Positions 41,935 through 54,835 of a DNA stretch of 64,000 nt are shown here, piece by piece. Position 1 is the stretch's first letter; each line of letters begins with the position of its first letter. The stretch spans positions 1 to 64,000 of the forward strand of contig NZ_BMOQ01000006.1 in assembly GCF_014647155.1 (NCBI RefSeq), read 5' to 3'. The notes beneath the pieces were generated by a model. The model was not told where the DNA came from. It was given only the letters and a program-made list of their open reading frames with translations, and searched no databases. This DNA is from Halarchaeum nitratireducens (GTDB lineage: Archaea > Halobacteriota > Halobacteria > Halobacteriales > Halobacteriaceae). Made by a program: the position numbers and the translations under genes.

Positions 41935-43080
41935 TCAGTCGAATCTGTCGAGCGAGAACATGTCGATGTCGTGGTCGCTCTCGCCGTCGACGGCGAGGTC
42001 GGCGAGCACCTCGCCGATGGCGCTCGCGAACTTGAAGCCGTGCCCGGAGAACCCCGCGCCGACCGCGACCTGCGGGTGGTCGGGGAGCGTATCGAGGATG
42101 AAGTGCTCGTCGGGCGAGTTCGTGAACATGCACGTCGAGAGGCGCATCGTCGGTCCCGCCGCGCTCGGGAAGTACTTCTCCGTGACGTCGCGGAGCACGG
42201 CCTCGTCCGCCCGATTCGGCTCCCGATCGAAGTCGTCCGGGTCCACGGTCTCCTCGCGGTGGTGGTACTTCCCGAGTTTGAACCCGGGGACGTCGTGGAT
42301 GGGGAAGCCGTAGAAGCGCCCCTCGGGGACGCTGAGGTTCCACACCGGGAACGACTCCGGCCGGTAGTCATCGAGCGCGTCCCCGTCCGGCTGGAACCAC
42401 GCGAGCGCCTGGCGCTCGGGCACCGCGAGCCCGTCGAGGGCGTCCGCGAGCGTGTGGGTCCACGCGCCCGCGGCGAGCACGAGCGAGTCCGCGACGTAGA
42501 CGCCGCGGTCCGTCCGGACGCGGACGCCCCCGTCGTTCGTCTCCGCCCAATCCTCGACGCGCTCGCGGGCGCGTATCTCCGCGCCGCGCGCCTGGGCGGC
42601 CTCCGTGTGGCCGACGATCGCCTGCTCGGGGACGACGAACCCGCCGTCCGCCTGGTACACGGCTCGGTAGTCCTCCGGGAGGTCGTAGCCGGGGAAGCGC
42701 TCGTTCACCGCCGCGCCCGACAACACCTCGTGTGGGATGTCATGCTCCTCGCAGGAGCGCTTCGAGCCCGCGAACACCTGATCGTCCGCGGGTCCGGCGT
42801 CGATCGAGCCCGTCCGGTGGATGACGTCGCGGCCGGTCTCCGCCGCGAGCTCGTCCCAGAGGTCGTACGCGCGCTCGACGAGCGGCACGTACGAGGGGTG
42901 TTCGTAGTAGGCGCGCCGGATGATCCGCGTGATCCCGTGCGAGGAGCCCTTCGTGTGCGGGACATCGTAGCGTTCGAGGCCGAGGACATCGAGGCCGCGC
43001 TCGGCGAGGTGGTAGGCGCTCGCGCTCCCCATGCCGCCGACGCCGACGACGATCGCGTCGTATCGGTCTGTCGCAGTCAT
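41935..43080 (-). CDS. Monomeric sarcosine oxidase/N-methyl amino acid oxidase-like FAD protein
   Basis: 381 residues, the length of monomeric sarcosine oxidase. VVGVGGMGSASAYHLAERG (11-29) binds FAD; Cys317 in LSTCMFTNSPDEHFILD corresponds to the Cys that carries covalent FAD in bacterial enzymes, Lys268 in GFKLGKYHH to the oxygen-activating Lys, and GAGFSGHGFKFA closes the site. It converts sarcosine (or another N-methyl amino acid) to glycine plus a one-carbon unit. It sits between the BCCT carrier and the divergent Rieske gene. Confidence 0.85.
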   Translation of the reverse strand: MTATDRYDAIVVGVGGMGSASAYHLAERGLDVLGLERYDVPHTKGSSHGITRIIRRAYYEHPSYVPLVERAYDLWDELAAETGRDVIHRTGSIDAGPADDQVFAGSKRSCEEHDIPHEVLSGAAVNERFPGYDLPEDYRAVYQADGGFVVPEQAIVGHTEAAQARGAEIRARERVEDWAETNDGGVRVRTDRGVYVADSLVLAAGAWTHTLADALDGLAVPERQALAWFQPDGDALDDYRPESFPVWNLSVPEGRFYGFPIHDVPGFKLGKYHHREETVDPDDFDREPNRADEAVLRDVTEKYFPSAAGPTMRLSTCMFTNSPDEHFILDTLPDHPQVAVGAGFSGHGFKFASAIGEVLADLAVDGESDHDIDMFSLDRFD

Positions 43081-43255
43081 CGTCTCCCGCCTTTCGATGG
43101 CGTCCGACTTGATTGTTCACCCTGCACTCTGAACTCCTTATCCGTCCACCGAGAGAGGCGTCTCGGAGCCCGTTCGGTGGTCGTTCCGACCAATACTTAT
43201 ACGGGTGACGTATTCCCGGCGAACCATTTTTACGTCGTGTGTGCTCCATTCGCCC

Positions 43256-44398
43256 ATGACACGGTGGAACGACGGCCACGACGAGATCGGCGCGGTCAGC
43301 GCTGACATCACCGAAGAGACGAACGCGCTCCCGGCGCAGTACTTCACCGACCCCGACGTCCACGAGATGGAGAAGGAGAAGGTCTTCGGGCGCTACTGGG
43401 TCTACGCGGGCCACGCGAACCGCATCCCCGAGCGCGGCGACTACTTCACGCGGACGATCGGCGACAGACAGATCATCGTCACGCGGGACGACGAGGGCGG
43501 CGTCCGGGCGTTCTACAACGTCTGTGCGCACCGCGGCTCGAAGATGCTCGACGACACCCCGATGACGGATCCGGGGAGTCTCAGCCGCATCACCTGCCCC
43601 TACCACCTGTGGGCGTACGAGCTCGACGGCGACCTCGCGAGCACGCCGAAGAGCTTCGAGGAGGCCAGCCTCAACCCCGACCTCGACGACGACGCCGTCC
43701 GCGAACTCGACCCCGCGGAGAACGGCCTCATGGAGGTGAACCTGGACTCGATCGGCCCGCTCGTCTTCGTCAACTTCCAGGACGACCCCGACCTCACGCT
43801 CGCCGAGCAGGCCGGCTCGATGAAGGACGAACTCGAAGCCCTCCCGCTCGGGGAGTACGAGCACGCGCGGCGCTACGTCTCCGAGGTCGAGTGCAACTGG
43901 AAGACCTTCAGCGGGAACTACTCCGAGTGCGATCACTGTCAGGCGAACCACCAGGATTGGGTGCGCGGCCTCGAACTCATGGAGTCCGAACTCGAAGTCA
44001 ACGACTACCACTGGATCCTCCACTACCAGCATAAGGAGGACGTCGACGACGAAATGCGCATCCACGAGGAACACGAGGCGAAGTTCTACTACTTCTGGCC
44101 GAACTTCACTGTAAACATGTACGGCACCGCCGACGGGTACGGGACGTACATCATCGATCCGATCGATGAGGGTCGCTTCCAGCTCGTCGCCGACTACTAC
44201 TTCCGTGACTCCGAACTCACCGACGAGGAGGAGAAGTTCGTCCAGACGAGCCGTCAGCTCCAAGAAGAGGACTTCGAGCTGGTCGAGCGCCAGTACGAGG
44301 GGCTGCGCTCGGGCGCGCTCGCGCAGGCCCAACTCGGCCCGAACGAGCACACCGTCCACAAGCTCCACCGGCTCGCGCAGGAAGCCTACGAGGCCTGA
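43256..44398 (+). CDS. Rieske oxygenase large subunit, glycine betaine demethylase-like
   Basis: 380 residues. Rieske cluster ligands Cys90, His92 (CAHRG) and Cys114, His117 (CPYH); mononuclear iron site NYSECDHCQANH with His227 and His232. GbcA-type glycine betaine monooxygenases and carnitine oxygenases belong to this family. MTRWNDGHDEIG at 43256 is the start; upstream codons lie in the promoter. It would remove one methyl of glycine betaine as formaldehyde, giving dimethylglycine for the FAD/GcvT enzymes. No ferredoxin reductase gene accompanies it, so electrons must come from elsewhere. Confidence 0.85.
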   Translation: MTRWNDGHDEIGAVSADITEETNALPAQYFTDPDVHEMEKEKVFGRYWVYAGHANRIPERGDYFTRTIGDRQIIVTRDDEGGVRAFYNVCAHRGSKMLDDTPMTDPGSLSRITCPYHLWAYELDGDLASTPKSFEEASLNPDLDDDAVRELDPAENGLMEVNLDSIGPLVFVNFQDDPDLTLAEQAGSMKDELEALPLGEYEHARRYVSEVECNWKTFSGNYSECDHCQANHQDWVRGLELMESELEVNDYHWILHYQHKEDVDDEMRIHEEHEAKFYYFWPNFTVNMYGTADGYGTYIIDPIDEGRFQLVADYYFRDSELTDEEEKFVQTSRQLQEEDFELVERQYEGLRSGALAQAQLGPNEHTVHKLHRLAQEAYEA

Positions 44399-44400
44399 CA

Positions 44401-44766
44401 ATGGCGTCGACGACGGACGCCGAGCGGCCACACGCCGGCACGATCACGTGTGCGACCTGCGACTTCCACGCCGTCATCACGGAGCCGAACGACGCGATCG
44501 AGCGTTATCGACGCCACCGTAGCGTCACCGGGCACGACATCAAGTGGGAGCGGACGGCACTCGACGCCGGACTCGACACTGACGACGTCGAGAGCGCGCT
44601 CGACGCGCTCGGCGACGAGTATCCCGACGGCGTCCCCCTCGGCGTCCTCACGGCGGCGCTCTCCGAGCAGGAGGTCACCATTGAGGCGACGCTCGATGCG
44701 ATCTACGACCTCCGGATGGCGGGTGCGATCTACGAGCCGCGGGACGACCACGTCCTCGTGGTCTAA
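44401..44766 (+). CDS. Zinc-finger plus winged-helix-like small protein
   Basis: 121 residues, starting 2 nt after the Rieske gene and so cotranscribed. An N-terminal C-x2-C (CATC, 17-20) followed by His residues (RRHRSVTGH) suggests a C2H2-like finger; the C-terminal half (PDGVPLGVLTAALSEQEVTIEATLDAIYDLRMAGAIYEPRDDHVLVV) has the pattern of a winged helix such as the MCM C-terminal domain. No named family is recognised. It may regulate the operon or help assemble the oxygenase; regulation is the more natural guess. Confidence 0.7.
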   Translation: MASTTDAERPHAGTITCATCDFHAVITEPNDAIERYRRHRSVTGHDIKWERTALDAGLDTDDVESALDALGDEYPDGVPLGVLTAALSEQEVTIEATLDAIYDLRMAGAIYEPRDDHVLVV

Positions 44767-44778
44767 GCGACACCGCTC

Positions 44779-45423
44779 CTATTCTTCGAGCAACGTCGAT
44801 TCGACGAGCTGGGCGGTGCCGCGGCGGATCCGCCCGCTGACGGCGGTCGAGGAGATGTCGAGGACCGCCGCGAGGTCTGCGAGCGAGGCCTCGCGCGGCT
44901 CCTCGAAGTACCCCTCGTCGTACGCGGTGACGAGCGCGTCGCGCTGTGCGTCGGTGAGCGTGCTCGGCTCGCCGTGTTCCCAGCCGTCCTGTCGGAAGGT
45001 CCGCTTGAGCGTGAAGTCGATCCCCTCGGACTCGCAGTACTCCCAGAGCCCGGAGAGCGACTCGCGACCGGTGAGGAGGAGACGCACCGTCCAGCCGCGC
45101 TCGCTGCCCTTCGCCTCGAGCATCAGCCCGCCCAGGGAGGTGACCATCGGCGACAGGAGGATGGTGTCGTCCGTGTGGCCGATCCGATAGATGCGCGTGT
45201 TCTTCTCCTCGGCGATGCGCGTCCACTCGCTAACGGTGTGGTCGGCGTCGAGCGCTTCCTCAAAGTCGCCATTGATCCCCTTCACGAGGAAGAAGAACTG
45301 GCCCGTCTCGGGGTCGGTCGCGGACTGCGAGACGACCTTGAGCTCGTCGCTCGCGTGGGACTCGATGGTCGGCGTCAACGCCAGATCGTCGTGTCTGATG
45401 TCCGCAACGGTGACGAGGCTCAC
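44779..45423 (-). CDS. HTH-10 (bacterio-opsin activator-like) transcription regulator
   Basis: 214 residues. The C-terminal 55 residues (LTDAQRDALVTAYDEGYFEEPREASLADLAAVLDISSTAVSGRIRRG) are an HTH-10 domain as in Bat regulators of haloarchaea; the N-terminal part is an unassigned sensor-like domain. It begins with GTG at 45423 because no ATG precedes the conserved part. It is convergent with the Rieske operon and divergent from the paralogue-A gene, so it is a prime candidate regulator of the betaine island. A palindrome ACAATATTGT is at 45516-45525, in its upstream region. Confidence 0.83.
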   Translation of the reverse strand: MSLVTVADIRHDDLALTPTIESHASDELKVVSQSATDPETGQFFFLVKGINGDFEEALDADHTVSEWTRIAEEKNTRIYRIGHTDDTILLSPMVTSLGGLMLEAKGSERGWTVRLLLTGRESLSGLWEYCESEGIDFTLKRTFRQDGWEHGEPSTLTDAQRDALVTAYDEGYFEEPREASLADLAAVLDISSTAVSGRIRRGTAQLVESTLLEE

Positions 45424-45660
45424 CGTTCCTCCCGACGGCCGCGGCGACGCGTCCCGCGCGACGGCGACCCGAGACGATCCGCGGGCTTCCGTTCAGAAAT
45501 ACCCCTCTTCTCCGAACAATATTGTCTATACCCACTCACTATAGGAACGAATCGGGCGGATATATTTATAATTTAGCCCTAACGTATTATTCTGTCGTAT
45601 AAACCCTCTCACTATTCCACACCGCGTTTCAGGGACGCCGGATCCGTGGTCACGACCAGT

Positions 45661-46572
45661 ATGTCTGTGGGAGACTCACTGCAACGGATTGGGTGTTTCC
45701 TTGAGAAATGCGAACAGCGGTCGAGCATCGACGTCCGTGGCGCGGACGTCACGATCACGGACGACGAAGCGCGCGTCGACGCCGACATCGCGCTCGCGAC
45801 CGACGACGGGACGCCAACGGCCGCTGTCGACGTCCGAGACGCCTCCCTCGACGCCGACGGCTCGCTCGCGGTCACGCTCGCGTTGAGCGGTCCGCTCGTT
45901 CCCTCCCACGCCGACGCCATCGATGTCGCGGTGCGTGACGTCTCCCTCACCCCCACTCCGACCACCGTCGTCACGGCGCGAACGCCCGTCAGATCGGGAT
46001 CGTCGGCGGGCAACGCACCGACGGCGACGACGCCCACGCCCGACGACGCACAGGGCGGTGGCGACGCCGACGTACCGCCGTTCCGGGACGCCGATCGGCT
46101 CGCCGAGATCTACGCGTCGTGCGAGACGTTCGCCGAGATGGCGGACGTCATCGAGATGGACGTCTCCGCGGAGACGGTCCGGCGCTACATGATCCGGAAC
46201 GGGATCCACGAACCGGACAGCTACGACACGGGGAACGCGGACGACGCCACGACACCGGAGACCGCGCCCGCCGCGCAGTCGCCGTCCACGACACCGGACG
46301 CCCACGACGATACCGCGCCGCCGATCCGGACGGACGGGATGGGCCTCCCGGAGTCGGTGACGGTCGACGACCTCGTGGTGGCCGTGAACGATGCCGAGAC
46401 GATCCGCGAGGTCGGGCGGTGTCTCGGCATCGAGCGCATGGACGCCTTCGAGTTGCTCACCGATCTCGACCTCCTCGAGTTCGTGATGGGGCGTCTCACC
46501 CGCGACGACGACGGCCAGGTCGGCCGAGAACAGATCCTCGCTCGCCTCCGGGAGACCGCGGTCCAGTCGTGA
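45661..46572 (+). CDS. Unrecognised HTH-like protein, paralogue A
   Basis: 303 residues from the ATG at 45661. Three parts: an N-terminal SLQRIGCFLEKCEQRSSI motif plus a beta-rich, variable segment (1-110); a central helical unit FRDADRLAEIYASCETFAEMADVIEMDVSAETVRRYMIRNGIHEP (about 137-185) that looks like a helix-turn-helix; and a C-terminal helical unit MGLPESVTVDDLVVAVNDAETIREVGRCLGIERMDAFELL (about 225-265). Linkers are Thr/Asp/Ala-rich. The paralogue at 53930 keeps the same three parts, with the central unit almost identical. I know no family name. A regulator is the best guess. Confidence 0.72.
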   Translation: MSVGDSLQRIGCFLEKCEQRSSIDVRGADVTITDDEARVDADIALATDDGTPTAAVDVRDASLDADGSLAVTLALSGPLVPSHADAIDVAVRDVSLTPTPTTVVTARTPVRSGSSAGNAPTATTPTPDDAQGGGDADVPPFRDADRLAEIYASCETFAEMADVIEMDVSAETVRRYMIRNGIHEPDSYDTGNADDATTPETAPAAQSPSTTPDAHDDTAPPIRTDGMGLPESVTVDDLVVAVNDAETIREVGRCLGIERMDAFELLTDLDLLEFVMGRLTRDDDGQVGREQILARLRETAVQS

Positions 46573-51827: not shown

Positions 51828-52481
51828 ATCGCGACCACCGTTCGCCCCGCGGTGGACCGCGGGCCGTCTCGATGGCTCCCGTCGACACCGGACCCGGAGC
51901 GTCGCGTGGCGCGTCCTCGGCACTCCGCGAATTCCTCGACGCCGTACGGGCCGACGGCTGGCACCGACTCGGGGAGCGCGGCGTCGTCGCAGCCCACCGC
52001 CGTCCGGGTGCCTCACACAACATATTACACTAATAGGTGTGTAAATGTAATGTTAGCCGATTTAGGACGCTGATCGGGGGGCGTACGCACCCGGGGTCGT
52101 TCTCCCGAATCCGGTCAGGGCAACACCAGAGTCGCGATACACACGACGGAAAAGACACAGACACACACATAATACATAGATAAGGTATATTCACTCTCGC
52201 CTCAACTGCTCCAGTTCGATACACACCGTCAGCGTGCGTCAGCAACCGCTTCTGACGAGCGCCTACCGTCCCTATATCCGGCATTAGTCTACGAATGTGG
52301 CCTCCATGTCGGCTTTCGCATCCGCAGGTGTCGTTGTCTCTTTAGACTTATTCTTGGATAATATCGTATCGAGTCACTGTATAATTAAGCTATTTTGAGG
52401 AATGAACAGGACATTGAGTAGCTGACCAGAGATGCTTGCATACCTGCTCAGCGAATGCTATGATGGGGATTTAGGCATCGT
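51828..52481. other. A+T-richer gap before the dead transposase
   Basis: No gene is supported. From about 52020 the base composition falls clearly below that of the neighbours, with a short CA-rich tract near 52155-52172 and TTACAC-N8-GTGTAA at 52026-52045. The stretch adjoins the transposase remnant and is probably old mobile-element or foreign DNA. Confidence 0.45.
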
Positions 52482-53929: not shown

Positions 53930-54835
53930 ATGACACGAGGGGGCGCGCTTCGTCGGCTGGGACGGTTCCTCGAGAAGTGCGAGCGACGGGACGACGCGGG
54001 CGTCGAGCTGTCCGACCCCCGTATCGAAGTGACGGAGACGGAAGCGCGCGCGACCGTCACGTACCATGTCGGCCCGAACGCTGAGGATATCGGGGAGATT
54101 GCGCTCGCCGACGCGACGCTCGACGACGAGTCGCTCACACTCACACTCGACGCGAACCTCCCCACCATCCCGACCGACGACCGACTCGACGTCACGCCGA
54201 CGTTCCTCACCATCGAAGACGGCGCGCTCTCCGTCCTTCTCACCGTCACCGCCGACGATGTCGACACGACGAGCGACACCGCTGGCGCCGCCGAGCGCGA
54301 CGCGACCGCGACGGGAACTGACCGATCGGAGCGCACCGACCGTGACGTCCCCCCGTTCGAGGACACTGAACTCCTCGCCGACATCTACGACTCCTGCGAG
54401 ACGTTCGCCGAGATGGCGGACGTCATCGAGATGGACGTCACCGCGGAGACCGTGCGGCGCTACATGATCCAGCACGGGATTCACGAACCGAACTCCTACG
54501 ACACGGCGCGGACGAACGCCGAAGAGACGGGCAATGATACCGGTACTCCCTCGCCTGCGCCCGACGCGGACGCCCCGACGTCCGAAGTCGTGACGGACGG
54601 GATGGGTCTCTCCGAGTCCGTCACGATTGACGACATCGTCGACGCCGTGGACGCCGCAAACACCATCCACGAGGTCGGCCGCGCCATCGGGGTCGAACGT
54701 ATGGACGCCTTCGAGCTCCTCCAAGAGTTCGACCTGCTCGAGTGCGTCATGGGCAAACTCTCCACCGAGGCCGACCGCGAGGTCGACCGCGACGAGATAC
54801 TTGACCGGATCCGCCGGGCCGCGAACGCGCGCTGA
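53930..54835 (+). CDS. Unrecognised HTH-like protein, paralogue B
   Basis: 301 residues. Same three-part build as the protein at 45661: RLGRFLEKCERRDDAGVEL at the N-terminus, central FEDTELLADIYDSCETFAEMADVIEMDVTAETVRRYMIQHGIHEPNSYDT, C-terminal MGLSESVTIDDIVDAVDAANTIHEVGRAIGVERMDAFELLQEFDLLECVMGKL. Linkers and the beta-rich N-terminal half diverge freely, which points to selection on the helical units. It too is followed by an oppositely oriented ridA (here broken). Function unknown; transcription factor likely. Confidence 0.72.
   Translation: MTRGGALRRLGRFLEKCERRDDAGVELSDPRIEVTETEARATVTYHVGPNAEDIGEIALADATLDDESLTLTLDANLPTIPTDDRLDVTPTFLTIEDGALSVLLTVTADDVDTTSDTAGAAERDATATGTDRSERTDRDVPPFEDTELLADIYDSCETFAEMADVIEMDVTAETVRRYMIQHGIHEPNSYDTARTNAEETGNDTGTPSPAPDADAPTSEVVTDGMGLSESVTIDDIVDAVDAANTIHEVGRAIGVERMDAFELLQEFDLLECVMGKLSTEADREVDRDEILDRIRRAANAR

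Follow-up and report, generated by a model that had tools for sequence, protein, structure and literature searches.

A small finger/winged-helix protein as constant genomic partner of a haloarchaeal Rieske oxygenase clade, and a probable two-chain oxygenase in relatives

The Rieske locus and its surroundings

The window, as we call the whole 64,000-nucleotide stretch of Halarchaeum nitratireducens DNA that was analysed, contains at 43256..44398 (plus strand) a gene for a 380-residue Rieske oxygenase of the quaternary-amine type (CntA/GbcA-like), recognised by domain models and a PDB sequence match. After 2 nt it is followed by a gene for a small finger/winged-helix protein of the HVO_B0008 family with 121 residues (44401..44766, plus strand; Pfam models and AlphaFold2). 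The preliminary description had read the two genes in the same way, and coordinates, Pfam domains and the AlphaFold2 fold all agree with it. A SolA-type FAD oxidase is encoded divergently on one side (41935..43080, minus strand; domain and NCBIfam models) and a Bat-type HTH regulator convergently on the other (44779..45423, minus strand; domain models). Together these genes belong to an island resembling those for betaine catabolism, which also encodes a dimethylglycine-dehydrogenase-like FAD/GcvT protein, a BCCT transporter, RidA, a threonine ammonia-lyase and a serine hydroxymethyltransferase, with names taken from domain and family models and from a matching annotated island.

Between 36448 and 63957 the island is partly doubled, with two BCCT transporters, two dimethylglycine-dehydrogenase-like proteins and two threonine ammonia-lyases, and the window also encodes two similar-looking 300-residue proteins without a Pfam match (45646-46572 and 53930-54835). 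The neighbours labelled hyp798, hyp609 and hyp1200 gave no Pfam match at E ≤ 0.01. In 20 of the 60 loci that were tallied, the surroundings of the Rieske gene include a 400-residue protein without Pfam match, in many cases next to an AstE-type desuccinylase (L069, 3426-4625; also L076, L087, L088 and others).

The oxygenase matches the Pfam Rieske and Ring_hydroxyl_A (catalytic domain) models above the gathering thresholds. Its cluster ligands C90, H92, C114 and H117 (43523..43606, plus strand; motif and alignment) form the C-x-H...C-x2-H arrangement, and the catalytic motif Y222, E224, H227 and H232 (43919..43951, plus strand; alignment) includes the catalytic-domain histidines, which together place it among the Rieske non-heme iron oxygenases. 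In the PDB its best sequence match is CntA, the carnitine monooxygenase (6y8j, E 9.7e-38); biphenyl, cumene and Stc2-type (3vca) oxygenases come next. Tyrosine 203 and the bridging glutamate 205 described for CntA (PMC7948474) correspond by motif, in a register placed by eye, to Y222 and E224. The best NCBIfam model is GbcA (NF058607), but as the score of 133.8 bits is far under the equivalog cut-off of 670, the enzyme is assigned to the same broad group only and not filed as GbcA; we call it a quaternary-amine-type Rieske oxygenase. It shares with CntA, GbcA/BmoA and Stc2 the Rieske ligands and the CntA-type tyrosine, glutamate and two histidines, and differs from them in the score below the GbcA cut-off and in that no dedicated reductase was found for it. 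From its family and its neighbours we infer that glycine betaine is the substrate, so that the oxygenase, by N-demethylation of glycine betaine, would be the first enzyme of the island, which would lead from betaine via dimethylglycine and sarcosine to glycine, serine and pyruvate.

The preliminary description had remarked that a GbcB-type reductase is missing from the island. None was found in the genome either (G000; 3.14 Mb, 98% complete): at E ≤ 0.001 no fused GbcB-type reductase came up, as its two FAD_binding_6 matches (contigs C7 and C2) share no contig with its three Fer2 matches, of which two are on C3 and one is on C6, some 48 kb past the end of the window. The cognate flavin/ferredoxin reductase of the two-component GbcAB class is thus not found here. 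Among the 67 pair-bearing genomes no reductase lies near the Rieske gene, the closest of 87 FAD_binding_6 matches being 54,979 nt away and 26 of the 87 being on the same contig. The three Fer2 proteins include two small [2Fe-2S] ferredoxins (130 and 112 residues) that stand alone. BLAST searches beside the loci with these three Fer2 proteins gave matches only in L126, a locus that lacks the small gene. Haloarchaeal ferredoxin is described as serving oxidative decarboxylation and nitrate assimilation (PMC8305020), and the window oxygenase would most likely receive its electrons from such a stand-alone [2Fe-2S] ferredoxin.

The small protein and its linkage to the Rieske gene

The small protein scores 63.3 bits with PF25214 (cut-off 27.0) and 82.8 bits with PF25215 (cut-off 27.4) and so possesses both the HVO_B0008_N and the HVO_B0008_C domain, whose Pfam descriptions state no function and do not mention Rieske enzymes. 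Full-text searches, with most subscription journals outside their reach, returned no paper on HVO_B0008 by name, and in literature searches of the same reach no paper among those listed was recognised as treating the pair of Rieske gene and small gene. The AlphaFold2 model (pLDDT 91.1, pTM 0.83) consists of a beta-beta-alpha finger and a winged helix. The predicted C2H2-type finger spans residues 13-52 (44437..44556, plus strand; AlphaFold2 and alignment), with strands 13-16 and 23-26 and a helix 29-43, and its ligands C17xxC20...H39x5H45 are two cysteines and two histidines in C2H2 spacing; a fold search with this half gave no informative match. The winged-helix half comprises residues 59-121 (44575..44763, plus strand; AlphaFold2 and fold search), with the winged helix itself modelled at 63-120 in a fold of the MCM C-terminal type. 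In the fold search two MCM C-termini, 2ma3 and 2m45, matched it best (Z 7.4; for 2ma3 with an rmsd of 2.0 over 63 residues), followed by IdeR (6.8) and RPA32-C/Rpa2 types (5.8-6.4). As MCM C-termini, the metal regulator IdeR and RPA32-C types score alike, the fold is undecided between DNA binding and protein binding. The likeness to the archaeal MCM C-terminal winged helix and to RPA32-C concerns the fold of the C-terminal half, and with Z below 8 it may mean only a common arrangement; the sequence match to MCM_WH_arc is weak (22.0 bits, under the cut-off of 26.1). Unlike MCM and RPA32-C proteins, the small protein is free-standing, joined to a finger and without a helicase. Acidic residues mark the putative recognition helix (94-106) as well as the wing (EPRDDH), and the net charge is negative in the finger half and in the winged-helix half alike.

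Across 67 aligned homologues R37, R38, L70, G81, R105, G108, E112 and P113 are invariant, and 58 of the 67 retain the complete set of four finger ligands. The other nine, all of family f2, have lost three ligands (four sequences) or four (five sequences); they evolve under purifying selection (pairwise w 0.12-0.53) and lie beside intact Rieske enzymes, while other members of f2 retain the ligands. The losses are found at L110-L116, L118 and L120. A conserved redox, metal or electron-carrier role of the finger is unlikely in view of these nine sequences. Fingers of the Ros family that lack zinc are reported still to bind DNA (PMC11241148).

The preliminary description had called the two genes coupled and had proposed a survey of haloarchaeal Rieske genes for the small partner. 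In 391 haloarchaeal genomes, matches to the small protein occur in 108 at E ≤ 1e-3, many of the weak ones being partial, and each of the 70 strong homologues is immediately preceded, in the same orientation, by the gene for a close relative of the window oxygenase, with gaps of 2-181 nt measured between match ends rather than exact gene ends. The small gene is therefore not a chance reading frame, and far from lying mostly apart from Rieske genes it adjoins one in every strong case, which strongly supports the coupling and confirms the pair in a stronger form than was first put. For this count 73 small-protein rows were entered, omitting the second halves of two split genes in G357 and weaker partial matches below 4.2e-6; the three rows without an upstream Rieske gene all score below 33 bits, and the 70 linked genes include two broken copies in G357. 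At these two loci (L122 and L129) the small gene is split in two frames and the adjoining oxygenases look broken as well.

Seen from the oxygenase, 91 Rieske rows were entered, with nine omitted (second fragments, two contig-edge pieces of G192 and the C-terminal piece G181:C1:22966), and 70 of the 91 places have the small gene. The 21 without it are 16 shortened paralogues and five distant enzymes, four of them at 46-48% identity and one at 55%, which in a 70-row tree are split off together by one branch and do not fall within the clade that bears the small gene. The shortened paralogue, here called B, is found in 16 genomes alongside a Rieske-bearing paralogue A; the small gene always lies directly behind A, and none of the 16 B genes has a copy of its own. 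With a profile from 65 rows, members of the small-protein family score 88-191 bits, whereas the matches listed after them reach at most 45.6 bits and, by position and frame length, look like MCM C-termini, so that no full-length relative without a Rieske gene stands above 45.6 bits among the matches listed. A match at G383:C5, considered as a further member, was rejected, as it matches DUF7542 and neither HVO_B0008 model. The closest relative of the small gene on a plasmid record is that of Halarchaeum sp. CBA1220 (67.8%).

The further neighbours vary widely. In the tally of 60 loci, 55 of them with the small gene, a Bat-type regulator lies near 28 and an IclR-type regulator near 11, with labels assigned by similarity to three annotated loci only; other regulators are thus variable and the Rieske gene and the small gene are constant. 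The small protein constantly accompanies a single Rieske clade in the haloarchaeal genomes. A domain family without stated function is thereby linked to one enzyme through an almost perfect correlation across genomes and gains a direct experimental handle, and the clade represents an archaeal Rieske oxygenase system for which no cognate reductase was found.

A promoter element and the role of the small protein

The regions upstream of the Rieske genes have in common a 16-bp element with the core TATCnCnGGTGAAC, which comes shortly after the TATA box and in most cases 43-53 nt ahead of the ATG. The window has a TATA-box-like sequence at 43195..43202 (plus strand; at a position common to relatives) and, at 43209..43224 (plus strand), a putative operator that scores a weak 12.4 bits with the element matrix and goes undetected once its own row is withheld; a stronger match of 14.9 bits lies at 52421 on the minus strand. 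A scan of 43080-44800 for terminators and sigma-70 promoters, a type that does not cover archaeal promoters, gave nothing. Over 41 non-redundant promoters a 30-wide motif including the TATA box reaches 22.2 bits, compared with 9.5-9.6 in mononucleotide shuffles. At 14 bits or more the element is present in 74 of 87 partner-bearing promoters (duplicates included), the matrix having been trained on the 41 non-redundant promoters among the 87 scored. None of the five partner-less promoters has it, their best score being 0.76, and of 1200 random windows 0.5% reach 14 bits. It is missing or divergent at the partner-bearing promoters L071, L073/L137, L086, L091, L097, L102/L153 and L148. When the own family was held out, which was done for 31 of 47 rows, 21 of the 31 non-redundant promoters exceeded the 1% shuffle threshold, and in each of these 21 the match began at the expected distance, 43-54 nt ahead of the ATG (f2 7/9, f3 9/11, f4 3/7, f6 2/2, f9 0/1, the window itself 0/1). 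This check strengthens the case for the element in relatives and lessens it for the copy in the window.

Of the B promoters, 14 of 24 (duplicates included) have the element at 13 bits or more and at the same distance; as A and B promoters are paralogous, this may reflect ancestry. A pattern derived from one promoter group had 26 places in 16 genomes, 18 of which coincide in their coordinates with promoters of Rieske A or B, with none in the four genomes without the gene and four places for the reversed pattern. Element distances, compared over 41 of 47 rows after removal of near-duplicates, correlate with those of the small protein at 0.58 (winged-helix half 0.59, finger 0.42) and with those of the Rieske domain at 0.52; the Mantel partials, from which phylogeny is not removed, are 0.39 for the small protein and 0.26 for the Rieske domain, each at the permutation floor, and a control stretch gives 0.16. 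By information content alone the element does not stand out: with no more than 27 non-redundant promoters taken per gene, it has 13.4 bits, and the best 16-mers upstream of other island genes have 11.1-18.6 (DMGDH 12.9, IlvA 18.6). Only its spacing is tighter (sd 5.8 versus 17-35).

What the small protein does can be read from these data in several ways, and we lean towards control rather than maturation. Our tentative preference is that it is a dedicated local regulator of the Rieske gene, probably an autorepressor. The small gene would probably be co-transcribed with the Rieske gene, and its product would bind, probably via the winged-helix half, to the element and limit the transcription of its own operon, possibly in response to a signal; repression is suggested by the position of the element between the TATA box and the presumed transcription start. 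The strict linkage, the predicted fold, and an element that is found at most promoters of the clade, rare elsewhere in the genomes scanned and absent at partner-less Rieske genes are the computed basis for such a regulator, and the promoter data lend it moderate support. Against it stand the acidic recognition helix and wing, the resemblance to MCM C-terminal and RPA32-C folds, some of which were solved as protein-binding modules (DNA binders of the IdeR type score alike), the information content of other island promoters, the partner-bearing promoters at which the element is missing or divergent, the failure of held-out recovery at 10 of 31 promoters including that of the window, the stronger match at 52421, the possible ancestry of the element shared by A and B promoters, and the partial correlation that the Rieske domain keeps. 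The two options of the preliminary description, namely a distant reductase with ferredoxin, or a role of the small protein in maturation or control, are compatible with each other, and its interpretation is supported in part.

Less likely, though a serious rival, is that the small protein assists the enzyme as an accessory, which would bind the Rieske-bearing chain and aid cluster insertion, assembly or the docking of a general ferredoxin, in the manner of NdmE, which has been postulated to align a Rieske cluster with NdmC (PMC4408171). Besides this precedent, the linkage to one gene regardless of the remaining island would fit such a role, as would the place of the small gene behind A even where A has no catalytic site, the cognate reductase that was not found, and the use of RPA32-C type winged helices as protein-binding modules, as stated in structure titles. 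However, A, the small gene and B often lie together, so that the place behind A may reflect inheritance only; partner-less Rieske enzymes of the same class do without the small gene; and the promoter element would then need some other regulator. That such a regulator, unlinked or variable (Bat-type, IclR-type or other), binds the element, with the small protein otherwise employed, for example in RNA-level control or sensing, seems to us rather improbable. Bat-type and IclR-type genes do lie near a part of the loci, the acidic recognition helix and wing of the small protein speak for it, and a minority of the partner-bearing promoters do not show the element, but the element also occurs at loci without a labelled Bat or IclR gene within about 10 kb (L087, L088, L096, L112 and L116 are examples), and its near absence elsewhere in the genomes scanned makes a broad regulator unlikely. 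An electron carrier whose CxxC/His site binds a redox metal and replaces the absent reductase or ferredoxin was also considered, given the missing reductase and the two cysteines and two histidines of most homologues, and it was set aside as very improbable: the ligand-poor homologues remain under purifying selection beside intact Rieske enzymes, and stand-alone ferredoxins are available. The dedicated local regulator thus remains the reading that we prefer.

Paralogous chains A and B in relatives

The ligands of B were inspected in 14 of the 16 genomes, all but G192 and G164, and in two of the 14 the gene is cut by the locus edge. In B, C90 is replaced by S and H92 by R or N, about 42 residues including CPYH are deleted in frame, and the catalytic motif (YEHH) is kept wherever the catalytic half was in view. 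Conversely, A retains all four Rieske ligands and has lost both catalytic histidines in G248 (N. amylolyticus), G365, G390, G130 (N. jeotgali), G132 and the MAG locus L149; in the Natronococcus pair A has CHCH only and B has YEHH without Rieske ligands. Such degenerate complementary pairs lie at L095 (10218-11666 and 8482-9546, minus strand), L090, L098, L100, L105 and L149, and B stands beside an intact A at L068 (24350-25360), L076, L087, L088, L092, L094 and L096; an annotated example of B is HTUR_RS22955, termed "SRPBCC family protein". The AlphaFold model of B has a mean pLDDT of 48.1, and its catalytic part is unusable.

In five genomes whose A lacks the catalytic site, the constraint on the two chains is complementary. 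The Rieske half of A is 80-94% identical between them (w 0.11-0.35) and its catalytic half 41-58%, with two closer pairs at 75 and 91% (w 0.33-0.75), whereas B has 93-99% identity in the catalytic half (w 0.02-0.14) and a w of 0.15-0.48 in the Rieske half. Intact A enzymes of relatives show lower values (w 0.07-0.19 in the Rieske half, 0.03-0.11 in the catalytic half), so that the Rieske half of these A chains is somewhat relaxed too, and an A without catalytic site may be decaying. In the tree these A chains form one clade (100/100) within the clade that holds B, with two rows of odd composition. The B of G361 (pair at L092, 8554-9687 and 10453-11493) groups with the A of its own genome, as if by gene conversion.

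The complementary constraint suggests an obligate split enzyme. Rieske oxygenases are described as handing electrons between neighbouring chains, over about 12 Å between chains compared with about 44 Å within one chain (PMC12445004, PMC7948474), so that A and B would be expected to work only together, and from their complementary loss and constraint it seems that they form one active complex. We consider it probable that the Natronococcus enzyme is an obligate two-chain oxygenase, in which A would provide only the [2Fe-2S] Rieske site and B only the mononuclear-iron site, with every electron crossing the subunit interface, that the genomes with an intact A and a Rieske-less B represent living intermediates, and that the finger/winged-helix protein is the dedicated partner of the Rieske-bearing chain across its haloarchaeal clade. 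If this is true, the relatives offer a natural complementation experiment for electron transfer between subunits, with the apparent intermediates still living. No archaeal split Rieske oxygenase was recognised among the papers listed in the literature searches, for which most subscription journals were outside reach.

Two known systems are comparable. In NdmC/NdmD/NdmE, the complex that N7-demethylates caffeine, a Rieske-less oxygenase chain is described as requiring the Rieske cluster of another protein and an accessory protein (PMC4408171), which resembles the A/B pairs. In that complex, reductase and Rieske domain form one fused protein, whereas here the Rieske domain is located on a paralogous oxygenase chain that has lost its own catalytic site. 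In Micromonas chlorophyllide a oxygenase (CAO), the Rieske site reportedly resides on one chain and the iron site on the other. This enzyme has been described as a Rieske oxygenase made of two polypeptides, for which a heterodimer was suggested (PMC9615114), and in this respect it is like the A/B pairs. Unlike the Micromonas enzyme, which acts in eukaryotic chlorophyll synthesis, A and B are archaeal and would be catabolic, and their relatives appear to preserve intermediate stages.
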